A stretch of DNA of 64,000 bases from Lactobacillus sp. (GTDB lineage: Bacteria > Bacillota > Bacilli > Lactobacillales > Lactobacillaceae): contig JAKVNR010000001.1 in NCBI GenBank assembly GCA_022483245.1, forward strand, positions 1,116,001-1,180,000, given 5' to 3'. Shown here piece after piece: positions 3,723 through 16,727 of this stretch; position 1 is the first letter of the stretch, and each line of letters begins with the position of its first letter. The notes under the pieces were generated by a model. It did not search any database and was not told the origin of the DNA. It was given only the letters and a program-made list of their open reading frames with translations. A program made the position numbers and the translations under genes.

Positions 3723-4439
3723 TTGTGTAGTAATCAAAAATTTCATCATTATATTGCTTTACTAGATTGTACTTATTCTGCCGCATTTGAATTTCTTCAA
3801 AAACAATACGGACGTGTCAAAGACGACTATTTTCATGAGCAATCATATGAACGATTTAAACAGGGAAAAATTAAAAATATTACACGTGGTAATTATTCAA
3901 GAACAAACCAAGGATTGGTTGTCCATCACTATTATGAAAATGAAATTCCTAATCTTTCTAGACCAAGTGTCATAAAACAAAAAAATGTAAGTTTTTCAAA
4001 ACAAAAAAGAATCAATTTAGTTTATTGTGATTTCTTTGAACATTTAATTTTACATGCACTTATTTCAAAAGAACAAAATAATAAAGAACTCGTACATGCA
4101 CTTATTTCAAAAGAACAAAACAATAAAGAACTCGTACATGCACTTATTTCAAAAGAACAAAACAATAAAGAACTCGTACATGCACTTATTTCAAAAGAAC
4201 AAAACGATAAAGAACTCGGATTTTTGGGATACAAAAATGGTATTTTCCCGCGCTTATATAAATGGTATGTAGAAGGTAAGGAGCCGAAGCAAAAGTGGCT
4301 CATGAATTGCTTTAATACAGCTTGGTTAAATAAAAATGATGCAATTAACATATTACGTAAAAGTATTATGTTATTGCCAAAGTGCTATAAGGACGAAAGA
4401 CACTGTCAATTCTTTTGTGTAAATAAATCTTTCCGATAG
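3723..4439 (+). CDS. HNH-like protein with internal tandem-repeat expansion; 3' end altered by IS insertion
   Basis: GLVVHHYYEN...NLVYCDFFEHLILHALISKE resembles small HNH-like proteins; C-terminal WYVEGKEPKQKW; ORF stop lies within the IS. Confidence 0.6.
   Translation: MCSNQKFHHYIALLDCTYSAAFEFLQKQYGRVKDDYFHEQSYERFKQGKIKNITRGNYSRTNQGLVVHHYYENEIPNLSRPSVIKQKNVSFSKQKRINLVYCDFFEHLILHALISKEQNNKELVHALISKEQNNKELVHALISKEQNNKELVHALISKEQNDKELGFLGYKNGIFPRLYKWYVEGKEPKQKWLMNCFNTAWLNKNDAINILRKSIMLLPKCYKDERHCQFFCVNKSFR
4051..4218 (+). repeat. 4 x 42-bp in-frame tandem repeat (HALISKEQNNKELV)
   Basis: TACATGCACTTATTTCAAAAGAACAAAA(C/T)(A/G)ATAAAGAACTCG repeated four times at 4051, 4093, 4135 and 4177. Confidence 0.97.
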
Positions 4440-5770
4440 GTTGATTCTTTAATTATGTTTTAATCGAAGTATGATTCCAACGTGTCTGTCACCTGACCAA
4501 AGCCTTTATGAGTCCGATTGGCATTCCGGTCGTTGTAGCCGATAGCCTGTACACCTAAGAAGTTGTCTAGGGACTCTTCAGTTGGAAATTCTGACTTTGG
4601 CTTTGTCTTGCGTTTGATCATGTTGTTTATCGACTCGATCATGTTCGTTGAGTAGATCGAGGGCCGAATCTGCTTAGGGTACTGGTAAAAGACCAGCAGG
4701 TCTTCCTCAATCTTCTGCAGATTCTTGATCATGCTTGAGTATTTTGAGTCGTATTTGTCATAGAAAGCGTGGAGAACCGTTTCTGCCTCTTTTAAGCTAG
4801 ATTGCTTGATTGCTTATGAACTTGCTTGAAGTCGTCCAGAGCCTCTTTATGATCGCTTACACGGACTTTTCCCTTGATATTTCGCATGACATGAACTAGG
4901 CAACGTTGGAATTTAGATTTTGGGTAATACTGCTTTAGCATGTCTTTAATGCCTACAAACCCATCTGATAGGAATAGCTCAACCTGCTCAAGGCCGCGTT
5001 CCTTGAAGTTGGAAATCATTTCACCCCAAATTTCGATATTCTCCACCGGGGCAATACGATAATCAATGATCTCCTTATGGCCATTAGGCTTAATCCCAAC
5101 AGCCACATAGACTGCCTCACGCTGGTACGTATCTCTACGCAGAGGAATGTAAGTGGCGTCGAGATACACGCAGAAGAACTTGTCGCTCAGCTGACGTTGG
5201 TGATATCTTTCGACCTGGCTGGCAACCTGCTTAGAGATGTTGGAGACAGTGCCAGCTGAGTAATAGCTGCCATACATTTTCTCAATCAAATCAGAGATCT
5301 CCCGGGTCGTTACGCCATGCGAATAGAGCTGAATCACGGTTGCTTCTAGCGTATCAGTGTGTTGGCCGTATGCTGGGAGAGTATGTTGGTGAAACTCACC
5401 TTTTCTGTCCCGAGGAACTTGAACTCTGATCGGTCCGAATTGAGTTTTAACTTGTCTAAAATAGCTACCGTTTCTAGAGTTTCCAGAGTTCCAACCCTCT
5501 CGAGCATAGGGATCATAACCAAGAAAGGCAGTCAATTCGCTTTCTAGGAGTTGATCGAGTCCTTCTTCAAGCTGAGTACGCATGAATTCATCGAATTTCT
5601 CTTTGTTCAATAGCGCATTGAGGCATTCTTTGTTAAATCAGTCATAGGGGATTCCCTTTCGTATTGATAGTATTCAAATCAATTATACGGAAAGGGAGTC
5701 CCTTTTTTATACCCAATTGGAATTTAGTTTAAGGAACTGTTCATCCTTACACATAAAATTATACAGTTCC
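4399..5770 (-). mobile_element. IS256-family insertion sequence with imperfect terminal inverted repeats and 8-bp TSD
   Basis: Ends GACACTGTCAATTCTTTTGTGTAA / (rc) GGAACTGTATAATTTTATGTGTAA, 17/24 match; flanked by GGACGAAA at 4391-4398 and 5771-5778. Confidence 0.9.
4460..5610 (-). pseudogene. IS256-family (mutator type) transposase, frameshifted near 4800
   Basis: N-part 4792-5610 (MNKEKFDEFMRTQLEEGLDQLLESELTAFLGYDPYAREG...) and C-part 4460-4732 (IRPSIYSTNMIESINNMIKRKTKPK) joined by untracked frame ...SLKEAETVLHAFYDKYDSKYSSMIKNLQ. Confidence 0.9.
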
Positions 5771-8702: not shown

Positions 8703-8741
8703 GATCTTCGAAATTCTAAACAGAATTTCGAAGATCTTTTT
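8703..8741 (+). terminator. 15-bp perfect-stem terminator just upstream of the plus-strand slp gene
   Basis: GATCTTCGAAATTCT-AAAC-AGAATTTCGAAGATC followed by TTTTT. Confidence 0.75.
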
Positions 8742-8772
8742 GTATGCAGCTATCAGCAAGACGCCTGCCAAG

Positions 8773-9046
8773 ATAATAAGATCTGTGGTAAGCAATGGGA
8801 GAATGCTGTAGGCATGAAGCCTGTACAGCATGCGGTTTCTTTGCTGAACGTGACTGCCCCGAAAGATTTATAAACTTTCGGTGTTCAGTTCAAGAAATTT
8901 GTACAATTATGGGCTATCTCATGACTATGCCTTTGCCCGTGCGAGTTTTATCTAAGGAGGAAAGACCACATGAAGAAAAATGTTAAGATTTTAGGCGCTG
9001 CTGCTGCTGCTTTGTTAGCTGTTGCTCCGGTTGCTGCTTCTGCTAC
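8773..9046 (+). repeat. Arm 1 of 274-bp perfect inverted repeat (slp 5'UTR, RBS and signal peptide)
   Basis: Identical by eye to the reverse complement of 13294-13567. Confidence 0.95.
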
Positions 9047-10619
9047 TGGCTCTGCTTTGGCCGATGTTACCGTTCCCGTTATTGTAAGTGGTGGCGCAAA
9101 GGAAAGTTCAGCTATTACTTTAACTTTGAAAGTCGCAAACCAATATGCTGGTGATGCGTCTAAGATGACTGCAACTTTGTCATCAACTACTGGTACACCA
9201 CAAATTAATAAAAATGATGGTAGAGTAGTTGTCTACAAGTCGGGTGACGCTACTGTAGGCTCTGATGGTTATGTATCATTTAAACCTGGTGTTAAGCCTG
9301 TTGATACTTTGGAAGCTGGGCAAAAGTATGTAGCTGTAGCTGAAGGCGTTTCTATTAAAAACGCTGGCAAAGCCGGGACTGATGTTTATATCAACGGTAC
9401 CAAGAACACATTAGATGAGTATGGTGATGCTACTAAGCTTAACTTGAATATTGGTGCTGAATTCACTGCTTATAATCCTGATCTTCCTGGCACCCCTTAC
9501 TTTGTTTATGGTCCTTCAGCAGCAAATGGTAAGAAGGGTCAACAAGTTAATGGTACTGTAGAAGCACCTAAGAATTTGGATTACAGTACTGTTGCCAATT
9601 TGCTAAGTGCTATCAACAGTGGTCAAATCATCGCTGCCAACCCTGGCAACGTAAAGAACACTGATCTTTTGCAAAACGCTAATATTACTGAATCAGAATT
9701 AGTAGATTTGTTGAGAAGTCAAAACTTGTTAGCTTCAGATGGCACTTCAATCAAAGCTCCATCCGAAGGCTTTAACTTAACTATTAGTAAGTACTTTGGC
9801 AATGGTAAGGCAGCTACTGCAACCATTCACTTCCCTGGTTCAAACGATAACGGTGCACCTATCTTCTACGAAAAGCCAAATTCTACTCAATGGCAAAAGA
9901 GATATGCTAATGGAGTATTAGTTGTAGAACAAGGTACTAAGTGGGATTCAGCAATTGCATCTAATGTATTTGCTGCATACATTAGCAAGAACGACCGTAC
10001 TCGTGTACATGTTTACACTGTAACTAATAATGTTAATACCTCAGTACCTGGTATTTACAGCGTAACTTTAGGTGCTACTAATACTGCTACTAACAAGACT
10101 TCATACAAGACTTTCCAAGTATTAGTTCAAGGTAATGGCGAAAAGACCATTAACTACGTACCTGGCTATGGTGTATTAGTATGGTCAGTAGACGGCAATA
10201 CTGCTTCATCAACCGGTAGAACTGTTTACACTGGTACTGCAGTTAAGACTGGTGAAAGTACTGTTGTTGATGGTGTAAGTTATACTAAGGTAAGTTACAC
10301 TGATCAAAAGACTGGCGCCGGCATTACTGGTTGGGTACAAACTCAATACTTATCAGATGCTTGGAAGATTGGTAAGCAATCCAACACCAACAAGCCATCA
10401 AATTCATCAGAAGAAAAGGCTTCAGGTGTAGCAACTGTAACCTACAAGGGCCGCGGTGGTGTTAACCTGTTGAACGCAGAAGGCAAGTACCAAAACCAAT
10501 ACGTAAAGAAGGGTTCAGCATGGAAGGTATTCGCAAAGAAGACCATCAATGGTGAAACCATGTACCGGTTAGGTACTCAAAGTCAATGGATCCCAGCTAA
10601 GTACGTATCAGTTAAATAA
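8970..10619 (+). CDS. S-layer-like protein with C-terminal SLAP anchor (probably silent copy in this orientation)
   Basis: MKKNVKILGAAAAALLAVAPVAASAT signal peptide, RBS aaggaggaaag, C-terminal SLAP; lacks the promoter seen at the other copy. Confidence 0.9.
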   Translation: MKKNVKILGAAAAALLAVAPVAASATGSALADVTVPVIVSGGAKESSAITLTLKVANQYAGDASKMTATLSSTTGTPQINKNDGRVVVYKSGDATVGSDGYVSFKPGVKPVDTLEAGQKYVAVAEGVSIKNAGKAGTDVYINGTKNTLDEYGDATKLNLNIGAEFTAYNPDLPGTPYFVYGPSAANGKKGQQVNGTVEAPKNLDYSTVANLLSAINSGQIIAANPGNVKNTDLLQNANITESELVDLLRSQNLLASDGTSIKAPSEGFNLTISKYFGNGKAATATIHFPGSNDNGAPIFYEKPNSTQWQKRYANGVLVVEQGTKWDSAIASNVFAAYISKNDRTRVHVYTVTNNVNTSVPGIYSVTLGATNTATNKTSYKTFQVLVQGNGEKTINYVPGYGVLVWSVDGNTASSTGRTVYTGTAVKTGESTVVDGVSYTKVSYTDQKTGAGITGWVQTQYLSDAWKIGKQSNTNKPSNSSEEKASGVATVTYKGRGGVNLLNAEGKYQNQYVKKGSAWKVFAKKTINGETMYRLGTQSQWIPAKYVSVK

Positions 10620-10642
10620 TTGATTCTTAGCAGAATCCAAAG

Positions 10643-10674
10643 AAAGAAGCGATGTCGAAAGACATCGCTTCTTT
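10643..10674 (+). terminator. Terminator of plus-strand slp
   Basis: AAAGAAGCGATGTC-GAAA-GACATCGCTTCTTT. Confidence 0.85.
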
Positions 10675-10749
10675 GTTTGCATAAATTAATTATGTGTGAT
10701 CTTTATTATATGTATACTAATCTAAATTAATTAACTAAGAGGATTATTT

Positions 10750-11241
10750 ATGGAAAACGATTTCAGAAAAGATAATGAATTTTATCCGATGGTTACTTCT
10801 TTAGAGCAAAAACGAAATAAAATGAATCAAAGATTTCAACAAGAGGATTATGGTGAGGCGATCAATTATGCTCGTTCCTTAATTGAATCAACATGTAAGT
10901 ATGTTTATCATGAACTTACAGGAACTGAAGTTGCCCAAGTTAAAGGGCGGAAAATTGAGCCTACAGGTGAGTATTATATTAGTTTAAACGGTTTAATTTC
11001 TGCCACCATTGAAAAATTGAGTTCTCTAATCAATTATAAAAAGTCTATTAAAGAAATTTCTGATGATTTAATCGATATTGTTAGACGAATAGGCGATATC
11101 AGAAACAAAAGTTCTGTATCTCACGGATCAAGAACGAGAAACATTGAACCACAAAAAGAAGAGACACTTTTTGTTATCAGTCTAGCAGAAGATGTTTGCA
11201 TTTTCTTAGTTAAATTATTACATGCTAGAACTAGCGTGTAG
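10750..11241 (+). CDS. Abortive infection family protein (Abi_C-like)
   Basis: YGEAINYARSLIESTCKYVYHEL...IDIVRRIGDIRNKSSVSHGSR matches the Abi_C domain pattern; RBS aagaggatt. Confidence 0.7.
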   Translation: MENDFRKDNEFYPMVTSLEQKRNKMNQRFQQEDYGEAINYARSLIESTCKYVYHELTGTEVAQVKGRKIEPTGEYYISLNGLISATIEKLSSLINYKKSIKEISDDLIDIVRRIGDIRNKSSVSHGSRTRNIEPQKEETLFVISLAEDVCIFLVKLLHARTSV

Positions 11242-11250
11242 GAACCGAAT

Positions 11251-11625
11251 GTGATAGGTGGTGTGTTTAAAAAAGAAGATCAAACTGGTAATGAATATGA
11301 AAAGCTATCAGATCTTGATAATTCTATTCAACATATTCGTGTGAAAAAGCAAATTTATACTTTAGATTTTTATATTGAACAGGATTTGATTTATCAAATA
11401 GATATTTCCTCCTCTGTTCTTTCAATTGCAAATGATAGTGAAGAAATTAATGGCTTAATTAGAGATGCACTGCCGAAAGATGCAAGCGAATTAAAAAAGC
11501 AAAGCAAAAATTGTTATAAATGCTATTCCGACAAACAAGATAGATATTATGATGTAATAATTAATACTAATGAAAGTACGCTGAATATAATTATCTCCGG
11601 AATTGAAGCAATAAACTTTAGATAA
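11251..11625 (+). CDS. Hypothetical protein, 9 bp downstream of Abi_C-like gene (putative operon)
   Basis: Uninterrupted 124-aa ORF; family not recognised. Confidence 0.6.
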   Translation: MIGGVFKKEDQTGNEYEKLSDLDNSIQHIRVKKQIYTLDFYIEQDLIYQIDISSSVLSIANDSEEINGLIRDALPKDASELKKQSKNCYKCYSDKQDRYYDVIINTNESTLNIIISGIEAINFR

Positions 11626-11650
11626 TCAAATGATTTGAAATATCTCAAAC

Positions 11651-11685
11651 AAAAAAGCGATGTCTTTCGACATCGCTTCCTTTTT
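11651..11685 (-). terminator. Terminator of minus-strand slp (same stem as at 10643)
   Basis: AAAAAAGCGATGTC-TTTC-GACATCGCTT; T-tract on the minus strand. Confidence 0.8.
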
Positions 11686-11708
11686 GATCTTCGTTAAGCT
11701 TCGATCAA

Positions 11709-13370
11709 TTATTTAACTGATACGTACTTAGCTGGGATCCATTGACTTTGAGTACCTAATCGGTACATGGTTTCACCATTGATGGTCTTCTTTGCGAATA
11801 CCTTCCATGCTGAACCCTTCTTTACGTATTGGTTTTGGTACTTGCCTTCTGCGTTCAACAGGTTAACGCCACCGCGACCCTTGTAGGTTACGACTGCTAC
11901 ACCTGACATAGCTTCTTCTGATGAAGATGGCTTGCTGGTGTTAGTATTAGTGTTCTTCCATGAACCATCCAAGTACTTGGTTTGGATCCACTTGTTAGTG
12001 TTAGTACCTGAAACAACTACTTTGGTGTATGATACGCCGTCAATAGTCTTGGTGTCGTTTGGATATACTTGAATTTGTGCATTAGCAGCAACGTTGTTTT
12101 CAGTACCTAAGATTGATGGAGTGTTGCCGTAAATAGCCCAAGTACGTACTGAGTAGCCTGGAACGTAGGTAACGGTCTTAGTAGCAGTTGCATCAATATT
12201 GCCTGGAGTTACAACAACGCTGTAAGTCAAGCTGGTTGAACGACCATCTGAGTTAGTAACTTTTAAGGTAACGCTATATACGCCTGGTACATTAACGTTA
12301 ACATTGCTTAAAGCAACGCTTTGGCTAGTTAAAGTCAATTTTTGTGATTCAAGGTTGTTTACTTGACGAGCAGTAAAGCCGCTGTATGGTCTCCAAGAAG
12401 TATCGCCTTGCTTAACTTCTACAACTGGCATAGTGTTAAGTGGCTTGTTGCCTTCTTGAATGTCTTGAGTACCGTAAGAAATTACAGGGTAATTGTTTTG
12501 AGTGTCTTCTGAGCCCTCGAAGAATACTCTAGCAGTAGCAGTGTTACCGTTCTTGCTATTCTTAGCAGTTACAGTGTAGAAGAAGCCACTGTCTGGAATA
12601 GTAAAGGCAGCAGCTTTATCAGTACCTTTAACTTCAATACCAGCCTTCTTCAATTGTGCAATAACTTCATCAGCAGCAGGGGTTACTTTTGAACCCTCGA
12701 CGTCATTTGAATCAGCGTGAGTAGTCAGGCCCAACTTCCCAATAGCATCAATCACTGCTCCAACAGTTGAAGCAGTATCCACTGAGGTAATTACTTGGTT
12801 ATTGTTGTAAGAATTACCATCCCTAGCTACATATGGACCACCAACGATGCTGGTGTCAATGCAGTGCAATACACGAGTTGCTGTGAAGCTGTGAACGTTG
12901 GTAACTTTGCCAGTGTTATCAATGTCAGATAAGATACCATTGTCGTTAGCCTTGTAAGCAGTACCGTTTACGCTGTACCACTTACCAGGTTGTAAGTTGG
13001 TAATTGAGTAAGTAGCAGTTTGTTTGTAAGAAACGCCTGCTTCAAACTTAGTAGCATTGTCGCTTTTAGTAGCATTGTCGCTTTGAGTAGAACCGTCTGC
13101 TTTAACAGTAACGTTTGAAACTGACGCATTACCCAATGATAATTGTGGGATTAATGAGCCAGAAGCAGTATAGTTAGAAACAGCTGTAGTTGGAGTAACA
13201 TTAGCGTCGCTGGTCCAAGTTGAAGTCAACTTAATTGGGCCATCAGTCGTGTCTGATGTGTCGCTGCTGTCGCCTAAGGCAGCGAATGCAGGCGTAGCAG
13301 AAGCAGCAACCGGAGCAACAGCTAACAAAGCAGCAGCAGCAGCGCCTAAAATCTTAACATTTTTCTTCAT
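11709..13370 (-). CDS. S-layer-like protein with C-terminal SLAP anchor (probably expressed copy)
   Basis: Same signal peptide and nearly identical C-terminus as 8970-10619, divergent centre; promoter directly upstream. Confidence 0.92.
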   Translation of the reverse strand: MKKNVKILGAAAAALLAVAPVAASATPAFAALGDSSDTSDTTDGPIKLTSTWTSDANVTPTTAVSNYTASGSLIPQLSLGNASVSNVTVKADGSTQSDNATKSDNATKFEAGVSYKQTATYSITNLQPGKWYSVNGTAYKANDNGILSDIDNTGKVTNVHSFTATRVLHCIDTSIVGGPYVARDGNSYNNNQVITSVDTASTVGAVIDAIGKLGLTTHADSNDVEGSKVTPAADEVIAQLKKAGIEVKGTDKAAAFTIPDSGFFYTVTAKNSKNGNTATARVFFEGSEDTQNNYPVISYGTQDIQEGNKPLNTMPVVEVKQGDTSWRPYSGFTARQVNNLESQKLTLTSQSVALSNVNVNVPGVYSVTLKVTNSDGRSTSLTYSVVVTPGNIDATATKTVTYVPGYSVRTWAIYGNTPSILGTENNVAANAQIQVYPNDTKTIDGVSYTKVVVSGTNTNKWIQTKYLDGSWKNTNTNTSKPSSSEEAMSGVAVVTYKGRGGVNLLNAEGKYQNQYVKKGSAWKVFAKKTINGETMYRLGTQSQWIPAKYVSVK

Positions 13371-13567
13371 GTGGTCTTTCCTCCTTAGATAAAACTCGCA
13401 CGGGCAAAGGCATAGTCATGAGATAGCCCATAATTGTACAAATTTCTTGAACTGAACACCGAAAGTTTATAAATCTTTCGGGGCAGTCACGTTCAGCAAA
13501 GAAACCGCATGCTGTACAGGCTTCATGCCTACAGCATTCTCCCATTGCTTACCACAGATCTTATTAT
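13294..13567 (-). repeat. Arm 2 of 274-bp perfect inverted repeat
   Basis: Reverse complement identical to 8773-9046. Confidence 0.95.
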
Positions 13568-13590
13568 AGCCTGTTCTGCTAGTTTTGCAA
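13563..13590 (-). promoter_or_regulatory. Putative sigma-A promoter of the minus-strand slp gene
   Basis: TTGCAA-16 nt-TATAAT on the minus strand; lies outside the inverted repeat except five bases of the -10 box. Confidence 0.7.
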
Positions 13591-13669
13591 AGCCTAACGG
13601 GCTTTTTAATTTTCTTGTAACACTATATTAGTATCATTGTTAAACTTTAAACTTTTTCCCATCAAAAAA

Positions 13670-14066: not shown

Positions 14067-14221
14067 TATCTATCAAATTTTCCATAATTTAGTAGATAAG
14101 TAGGCTACATTCCCCTTCTATCTATCAAATTTTACATTTTTTGATAGATACGTAGTGTATTATGCCCTGCTATCTATTAAATTTAGTGAAATTTGATAGA
14201 TAGATCATCATATTTTCAAGC
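14067..14221. repeat. Three degenerate ~52-bp tandem repeats, each with an imperfect palindrome TATCTATCAAAT...ATTTGATAGATA
   Basis: TATCTAT(C/T)AAATTT starts at 14067, 14119 and 14171. Confidence 0.85.
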
Positions 14222-14268
14222 TTACCTGCAAATTTCACATTTTTTACACGTTAGTCAATCGCACTTTT

Positions 14269-14301
14269 TGATGTCATTTTGACGTCATTTTGCAGTCATC
14301 T
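14269..14301. repeat. Three 11-bp iterons (TGAYGTCATTT-like)
   Basis: TGATGTCATTT / TGACGTCATTT / TGCAGTCATCT at 14269, 14280, 14291. Confidence 0.8.
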
Positions 14302-14395
14302 TTTCGCTTTTCTACATTATTATTGACACTTCTTGCCGTCATTTTGCTACCAATTTTAGGTATTTTCTACCTTATTGTTGATGCTCGTCTCATCT

Positions 14396-14450
14396 TGACG
14401 TCATTTTGACGTCAATTTGACAGCTTTTTGACGTCATCATGACGTCATGT
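14396..14450. repeat. Five 11-bp iterons, four with perfect palindrome TGACGTCA
   Basis: TGACGTCATTT, TGACGTCAATT, TGACAGCTTTT, TGACGTCATCA, TGACGTCATGT at 14396, 14407, 14418, 14429, 14440. Confidence 0.9.
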
Positions 14451-14599
14451 TTCGCTTGCAAAAACACACTAACATCCCCGCGCTAGCCTGCTTTTGCAAG
14501 CAGAGCAGTCCGCCTGCCCTAACTCGCTTATCTTATTTCTTCCTTATTATCAATGCTCTAATCTCCTCTCCTAATTTCTTCACCTGTTCAACTAACCCC

Positions 14600-15279: not shown

Positions 15280-15336
15280 GGGAACATACGTTTGAATTGG
15301 TATAATATCTATTTATTAAATAGCAAAGGAGTGGGA

Positions 15337-15984
15337 ATGATAGATCAATTAGAAATGTCTATAGCTTCCTTGGTTGCTGATATATGCAAACAACATCAGA
15401 ATTTTTCAGAGTATTTCTATCAGTTGGATTTTTTACGAAACTATCAACTAAGAAATCTCAACAAAATCAGTGTTTCAACTGCTTTGCAGGATGATTTTTT
15501 TATTCAAAAATTCTTGCCTGAATACCATAAGGAGCTACTAAAATTTGGTCTTGATGAGTATTTATTTGAGCTTAATTTGCGGCTTCGGCAATTAAATCTT
15601 GGTACAATTAGAAGTAGGGCTAAAGACCCTGAAACTATAATCAAGAAAATGCAACAATACGCGGCCCGGGAACAAAAAATACATGGATTACCGATTTCCA
15701 AGTGTTTGAATGATTTGCAGGGCATGCGTTTAATTGCGCCCAACGTTAATAACAATTGGCCAAATATTGATAAACTATTACAATCATGCCATGATAAAAA
15801 ACAAATAAAACGTTTTTATTATCGTGATCAAGATAATTACAAATCTTTTCAATGTTATATCCAATGTGATAACAAGTATTTACCTTGGGAATTGCAAATT
15901 TGGGATTCAGCAGATGAACTGACCAATAACCTAGCTCACGTTAAACATGAGCAATTAAGAGAATATGATAGGAGGGGAATTTAA
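15337..15984 (+). CDS. RelA/SpoT-domain protein, putative toxSAS toxin
   Basis: GTIRSRAKDPETIIKKM, CLNDLQGMRLI, DNYKSFQCYIQ...WELQIWDSADELTNNLAHVKHEQ are (p)ppGpp-synthetase-like motifs; ATG with RBS aaaggag. Confidence 0.8.
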   Translation: MIDQLEMSIASLVADICKQHQNFSEYFYQLDFLRNYQLRNLNKISVSTALQDDFFIQKFLPEYHKELLKFGLDEYLFELNLRLRQLNLGTIRSRAKDPETIIKKMQQYAAREQKIHGLPISKCLNDLQGMRLIAPNVNNNWPNIDKLLQSCHDKKQIKRFYYRDQDNYKSFQCYIQCDNKYLPWELQIWDSADELTNNLAHVKHEQLREYDRRGI

Positions 15985-16727
15985 TGATTCATTTAGTAGC
16001 ATTTGCCAATATTTCCGGAAAACAATATGCATATGATTACTGTGCTCCAGATAACGAATATGAAAAAATCATCGCTAAAAAACAAGAAATGATGCAAGAT
16101 GCATCTGATGAATCAAAGAATCTCTTCACTTTTCATTTGATTCCATCTGATGATGCTAGCTTTGAATCTATCCAACAGGCTGATCCTTATTTTGCCAACA
16201 CTCAACTTTGCGAAACTTTCGATGATTTTTTAAGTACCATTAATTCAGAGGGAAAACTTACTTCAAAAGATATAGCAAGTTATCTCTTGCGAAAGTATAA
16301 GTTATTACGCCAGAGACGTTTTGCATTTCATAAAATCTTGTATTATATCTATGCTGATTTTTTAGTAGATCATCATTATCCTTTGTTCACTGCAAATTTT
16401 GTAGCTTTTGAGCAAGGCCCGGTTGAGTATGATATTTATCAATTAGAAAAACAAAATCAGCAAGCTTTACTCGGCGATGCTTCATTAGAGTTAAAGCTTC
16501 AGATGTCACCAAACAGAAAACCAATTATTGAATTAATTGACCAAGATGTACGCAAATATCAGGATTACTTTAATAATGTTTGGATAAACAATCATGGTCA
16601 TGATGCTAACTACAATCCGACTCACCTCAATGGAACGCCTTGGGAGAGAGCGATCGAAAAAGGCAGAAATTCTGTAATTTCGGATGCCGATATTGTTCAA
16701 TATCATGATCTAGAAATCCTGAGTTAA
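15984..16727 (+). CDS. Panacea/SocA-like (DUF4065) domain protein, putative antitoxin
   Basis: LTSKDIASYLLRKY...FAFHKILYYIYADFLVDHHYPLFTANFVAFEQGPVEYDIY; start overlaps toxin stop (TAATG). Confidence 0.8.
   Translation: MIHLVAFANISGKQYAYDYCAPDNEYEKIIAKKQEMMQDASDESKNLFTFHLIPSDDASFESIQQADPYFANTQLCETFDDFLSTINSEGKLTSKDIASYLLRKYKLLRQRRFAFHKILYYIYADFLVDHHYPLFTANFVAFEQGPVEYDIYQLEKQNQQALLGDASLELKLQMSPNRKPIIELIDQDVRKYQDYFNNVWINNHGHDANYNPTHLNGTPWERAIEKGRNSVISDADIVQYHDLEILS

Follow-up and report, generated by a model that had tools for sequence, protein, structure and literature searches.

Positions 8773-13567 of the window analyzed here, a 64,000-nt stretch of a Lactobacillus sp. genome (assembly GCA_022483245.1, contig JAKVNR010000001.1, positions 1,116,001 to 1,180,000 of the forward strand), very likely constitute an invertible expression switch for S-layer protein (slp) genes, of the Lactobacillus slpA/slpB kind. 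An earlier note on this DNA, made from the sequence alone, had proposed such a switch, and the proposal is supported by the location of the promoter, which is found on one and the same flank in 13 of the 13 convergent slp pairs compared and on the opposite flank in none (0/13), by a control with the known S-layer protein SlpA, and by the reversal of the inner segment between two related genomes (G018 and G067). We infer that the segment inverts in the window strain itself and that antigen switching is the purpose of the inversion. Coordinates are those of the window (Table 1) unless a genome handle is given.

Two convergent slp genes with perfect arms

The two slp genes are convergent open reading frames (ORFs), as the earlier note described, and encode proteins with identical first 26 residues, identical last ~60 residues and divergent centers (~31% identity). 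The 5' regions, previously reported as byte-identical through the 5' untranslated region, the ribosome-binding site (RBS) and the signal peptide, indeed form an inverted repeat of 274 nt with 100% identity, the arms of which are separated by 4247 nt. Each arm runs from the -10 box, where it takes in the final five bases, through the leader and the RBS into the signal peptide, up to approximately codon 26. The near-identical C-termini are encoded by a second inverted repeat of 222 nt with 95% DNA identity. The 274-bp perfect repeat is not a chance occurrence. Assuming a divergence equal to that of the C-terminal repeat, the probability of zero differences between the arms is ~8e-7, which is so low that the arms appear to have been homogenized later than the C-terminal repeat. 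Across the whole genome, a single contig of 1.555 Mb, a search recovered the two arms and no third copy; the one extra match is a terminator that aligned with itself. Identity of the arm to any other genome sampled is at most 76%.

A promoter fixed on one flank

A promoter sequence is present at the minus copy only, in agreement with the earlier note; the accompanying statement that it directly abuts the repeat has to be corrected because the repeat edge (13567) falls inside the -10 hexamer (13563-13568). Because the edge cuts within this hexamer, the silent plus copy retains a GATAAT (8772-8777) and has no -35, the lack of which had been pointed out before and recurs in 13 of the 13 silent-side copies. 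The 15-bp terminator hairpin reported upstream of the plus copy was recovered with its stem and T-run, and is predicted to insulate this copy. A promoter scan yielded 12 sites, compared to 14 expected in shuffled sequences, so the motif match alone is not above chance; the promoter is credible because it is conserved in 13 genomes, not because of the motif.

These genomes were identified by searching 75 Lactobacillus genomes for the arm, which produced matches in 51; in 13, including the window genome, a convergent pair with matching arms is fully comparable. In each of these, the copy that carries the promoter adjoins the flank encoding a lipoprotein and the Kup transporter. Neighboring genes served to assign the flank side in all genomes but G043; there, the assignment relied on the promoter, so that this genome is not an independent test of the rule. 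Two tandem pairs, with both genes in the same direction, were also found, with the promoter on both copies in G042 and on one in G074. In G003, the gene next to the promoter matches SlpA, an S-layer protein of solved structure; we take this genome to be L. acidophilus and its promoter-side gene product to be SlpA itself. In L. acidophilus, 99.7% of the cells carry slpA at the expression site (PMC6015585). The flank rule thus passes a positive control, selecting in G003 the gene that is known to be expressed, and would allow the ON slp gene to be predicted from sequence across the genus. From the promoter position and this rule, we infer that the minus copy is ON and the plus copy silent, as the earlier note held.

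Under the mechanism that we propose, the one fixed promoter on the lipoprotein/Kup flank would drive whichever slp gene adjoins it, at present the minus copy. A crossover between the 274-bp arms would flip ~4.8 kb and thereby bring the other mature protein behind an unchanged promoter, leader RNA, RBS and signal peptide, and the displaced gene would be silenced behind the terminator.

Inversion between related genomes

The earlier note had called for a comparison of the locus in related strains, and a comparison among relatives, in addition to the common promoter flank, revealed an inversion of the inner segment between the sister genomes G018 and G067. The flanks of the two loci are colinear (on the left, a GDPD gene with 80% and an integrase gene with 87% identity; on the right, the lipoprotein gene and the next gene with 74% and 96%), and the inner genes, for an acyltransferase (95.5%) and an AAA protein (84.7%), are in reversed order. 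G067 is split into contigs, each junction being contained in one contig. The slp gene adjoining the acyltransferase gene belongs to one type in both genomes (59%), but the other slp gene was replaced in either G018 or G067, so that the difference amounts to an inversion plus gene turnover. Elsewhere in the genus, slp centers that are 79% alike are located at opposite ends of the locus in G004 and G003, and the same holds for a 57% pair in G013 and G004.

A structured leader RNA in the arms

The arms carry a leader of ~130 nt for which a structure was obtained from an alignment of 15 leaders, all from promoter-side copies, with 97.4% of cells paired and compensatory changes in 15 of the 31 pairs. 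Covariation is 0.496, as against 0.250 in shuffled alignments and at most 0.109 in slid controls, and the leader alone folds better than its own shuffles (z -2.6). With the covariance model, exactly two hits were obtained in the window genome, one at each arm; across the genus, 45 of the 75 genomes contain copies. Given this covariation, the fold and the confinement of the copies to the arms, the leader is very probably a functional RNA that is preserved by the arms. When positions 6-16 kb of the window were scanned against Rfam, only sub-threshold hits to unrelated families were obtained, none of them in the leader, so we have here a covarying structured RNA, lacking an Rfam match in that scan, that coincides with the predicted recombination arms. 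The usual suggestion for the role of the leader is mRNA stability. A weak match (L106; 45.5 bits) was also observed in G113, a genome from another genus, where it precedes an slp-like gene that has a lipoprotein-like gene as its neighbor; the slp expression site may be older than the genus.

An integrase beside the silent copy in four relatives

In G018, G067, G039 and G044, a gene for a 368-aa protein of the Phage_integrase family with an arm-binding domain separates the left flank from the silent slp gene, toward which it is oriented. The catalytic residues (R, H-x-x-R, H and Y) are intact in three of the four proteins, and the frame of the fourth (G044) is broken near the C-terminus. Between G018 and G067, the nonsynonymous and synonymous divergences (dN and dS) are 0.089 and 2.6, respectively; given that dS is saturated, this points to purifying selection and nothing further. 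The integrase stop codon is directly followed by a repeat with 11-bp spacing that is related to TGAGGTCA. Homology to the arm on the promoter side sets in 74-80 bases from that stop codon, at TTTATAGACCTCTGATC, in the loop of the leader hairpin. Because the arm homology starts within this loop, the silent leaders of these species are half-length and score 26-33 bits where found, compared to 123-132 bits on the promoter side. This anatomy would fit a past insertion of the integrase at the hairpin loop, with a core that still matches the other arm. The boundary cannot be counted as four independent events, a possibility that we rejected since the flank is inherited and represents one ancestral junction.

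We put at about even chances that this lineage possesses an slp invertase of its own, namely a phage-type tyrosine integrase encoded outside the segment with the leader-hairpin loop as its core. Such an integrase would have taken over the slp leader as a target site, been left without the element to which it belonged and been retained for inverting the coat genes; the exchange would pass through the apical loop of a functional leader RNA, with the 5' strand of the hairpin kept with the promoter and the 3' strand moving with the gene, and inversion junctions would be expected in TTTATAGA. The window species would then have an integrase-free, long-arm form of the same switch. In the searchable literature, outside of which most subscription papers fall, there is no report of an integrase at the slp locus and no recombinase is named as the agent of slp inversion, for which there is now a concrete candidate in four species; within the same bounds, the integrase-linked variant and the covarying leader seem to be new.

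The agent of the crossover in the window genome

At the slp locus of the window, the ORF list includes no recombinase gene, and a whole-genome search with PF00239 returned only frames of 461-573 aa and hence no small serine invertase, which rules out an invertase of the Hin/Din type for this genome. These two absences favor a crossover of the RecA type: provided that the switch exists, homologous recombination over the arms is likely to be its agent, and would be the simplest one given that the arms are perfect over 274 bp.

It is doubtful, by comparison, that the agent is not RecA but a site-specific recombinase with its gene at another locus, recognizing a short core such as the leader hairpin within the arms. 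This hairpin is conserved in the window, the integrase of the four relatives lies beside the silent arm with homology starting at the hairpin loop, and the genome encodes four tyrosine recombinases (XerS, two phage-type integrases and a lone catalytic domain of 196 aa). However, no tyrosine recombinase gene is near the locus, the closest match to the slp integrase in this genome reaches only 35% identity, a small invertase of the Hin/Din type is missing, as stated above, and long perfect arms are better suited to general recombination.

Three pairs of large serine recombinase genes, encoding proteins of ~525 and 570 aa, were additionally observed outside the window (G000:C1 24715-26851, 69739-71650 and 1540791-1542927). 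The pairs have near-equal scores, one copy contains an internal stop, and the pattern suggests a repeated mobile element.

Comparison with known switches

Boot, Kolen and Pouwels are said to have described the invertible slpA/slpB segment of L. acidophilus in 1996. Inversion in this species is a documented event (PMC7858073, PMC6015585) that followed inactivation of slpA, and a switched subpopulation was found in the mouse gut (PMC7858073). Like the L. acidophilus system, the window locus has a convergent slp pair in which the 5' regions are identical and the C-termini conserved, a single promoter and a silent second copy; it has the promoter flank and the leader in common with G003 specifically. 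It differs from that system in species, in its dissimilar mature proteins (the best match of a window slp center in other genomes is 36%), in the length of the segment (~4.8 kb versus ~6 kb), in the Abi_C cargo and in perfect arms that reach into the -10 box. The paralogous slpA and slpB genes of L. crispatus M247 are similarly encoded in opposite directions, with a spacer of 4,624 bp, and no inversion of this locus is mentioned in the passages found in the paper (PMC10763512). Here, too, species and proteins are different from those of the window. The cwpV switch of C. difficile, an example of the invertible switches that depend on a tyrosine recombinase, is a DNA inversion in which a short element is flipped beside one gene. 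The likeness to the slp switch consists in phase variation of a surface protein through a genetic switch (PMC2784873). In the slp switch, by contrast, whole genes would flip past a fixed promoter, and a recombinase is encoded at the locus in four relatives but not in the window.

Arguments against inversion

Several considerations weigh against an invertible switch in the window species. Among the strains compared, none of this species has the segment in the other orientation; the perfect arms could also be explained by gene conversion without inversion; and a recombinase may act in trans, the candidates being the lone catalytic domain, XerS and the phage integrases listed above. In the nearest relative, a sister metagenome-assembled genome (MAG; L009), an slp fragment on the left flank is 44.7% identical to the ON gene of the window versus 35.8% to the silent one; this hints at an inversion, but weakly. 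A search of public genomes with the slp protein returned one sister MAG contig only, broken at the C-terminal repeat, and a search of plasmid records one L. crispatus slp match only. A contig of 7155 bp (L051, G068:C59) starts and ends in slp arms, the assembly having broken at both repeats, and because of such breaks the slp orientation will be hidden in draft assemblies.

It is improbable that the strain does not invert the segment at all and that the plus copy is a dormant paralog, the 5' region of which is kept identical by gene conversion; coat changes may then be rare or proceed through conversion of the expressed gene. Conversion homogenizes arms as well, the perfect identity is confined to the 5' region whereas the rest differs, and the second orientation has not been seen in the strain. 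This explanation has to contend with the different orientations in G018 and G067, with the like centers at opposite ends in G004 and G003, and with the documented inversion in L. acidophilus (PMC7858073, PMC6015585). That both slp genes are expressed and form a two-protein coat, the plus copy being transcribed by read-through or from a promoter that escaped recognition, is highly improbable: a GATAAT persists upstream of this copy and its leader and RBS are intact, but the -35 is absent from every silent-side copy, a strong terminator is located just upstream and the corresponding copy is silent in L. acidophilus (PMC6015585). An invertible switch at the window locus, if borne out, extends the known S-layer switch to a further species.

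The slp proteins and the cargo of the segment

Both slp products are predicted to be S-layer or S-layer-like proteins. They contain a signal peptide, and the mature proteins are basic (isoelectric points of 9.3 and 8.5), their cysteine counts being 0 and 1. In the plus copy, the stretch of residues 333-459 has matches among the solved structures of SlpX. The SlpA/SLAP model (PF03217) scores 23.2 bits, above the 23-bit cut-off, for one and 22.9 bits, just below it, for the other. The whole-protein Pfam scan gave no SLAP match for the slp proteins, and NCBIfam has no family for either of them. The cargo between the slp genes, which includes an Abi_C protein in the window, varies by species and elsewhere comprises an acyltransferase, an AAA protein, a GDPD and a glycosyltransferase (L043, L044, L045, L049, L059). 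In G018, G067, G044 and G039, the acyltransferase gene tracks one slp type, whichever end that type holds.

Table 1. Features of the slp locus in window coordinates
Feature	Position	Strand	Basis
slp gene, 553 aa, predicted ON	11709..13370	-	ORF, promoter position, protein comparison
slp gene, 549 aa, predicted silent	8970..10619	+	ORF, promoter position, protein and structure comparison
Left repeat arm, silent side (leader, RBS, signal peptide)	8773..9046	+	274 nt, 100%; two genome copies only
Right repeat arm, expression side; outer edge within -10 box	13294..13567	-	Inverted-repeat comparison
3' inverted repeat, common SLAP C-terminus, silent copy	10403..10624	+	222 nt, 95%
3' inverted repeat, common SLAP C-terminus, active copy	11704..11925	-	222 nt, 95%
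Expression-site promoter, TTTGCA-17-TATAAT or TTGCAA-16-TATAAT	13563..13591	-	Kept on same flank in 13/13 convergent pairs
Terminator hairpin upstream of silent copy	8703..8736	+	15-bp stem, T-run
Terminator hairpin 3' of silent slp gene	10640..10679	.	Paired terminators
Terminator hairpin 3' of active slp gene	11646..11685	.	Paired terminators
Structured slp leader RNA, silent copy	8784..8914	+	Covariance model R1, 122.8 bits; covariation
Structured slp leader RNA, active copy	13426..13556	-	Covariance model R1, 122.8 bits; covariation
Leader hairpin CCGAAAG-ATTTATAAA-CTTTCGG, silent copy	8859..8881	+	Loop is the start of arm homology in integrase-bearing relatives
Leader hairpin CCGAAAG-ATTTATAAA-CTTTCGG, active copy	13459..13481	-	Structure alignment
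Cargo gene within segment, Abi_C-domain protein, 163 aa	10750..11241	+	PF14355, E 8.8e-9
Cargo ORF within segment, 124 aa, no family above cut-off	11251..11625	+	Pfam scan

Neighboring repeats and genes

Approximately 0.5-0.9 kb outside the promoter-side arm, positions 14067-14452 contain palindromic TATCTATCAAATTTT repeats and, after these, TTTTGACGTCA repeats with a spacing of 11 bp, which look like iterons or arm sites. The 11-bp TGACGTCA repeats at 14267-14452 may be the arm sites of a lost integrase, comparable to the TGAGGTCA repeats of the four relatives; however, they are palindromic, differ from the latter and, like the whole 14067-14452 array, are absent from the relatives. On the silent flank of the locus, a 238-aa ORF (3723-4439) that contains HALISKEQNNKEL in about four tandem copies and has no match in Pfam is located near a Mutator-family transposase gene (4460-5610, minus strand) that is apparently divided into two ORFs. 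At 15292-16727, an ORF with a RelA/SpoT domain (31.1 bits, above the cut-off) is directly followed by a SocA/Panacea-like ORF (24.7 bits, just below the cut-off, with a weak NCBIfam match to SocA), and the pair looks like a toxin-antitoxin module of the toxSAS-Panacea type.

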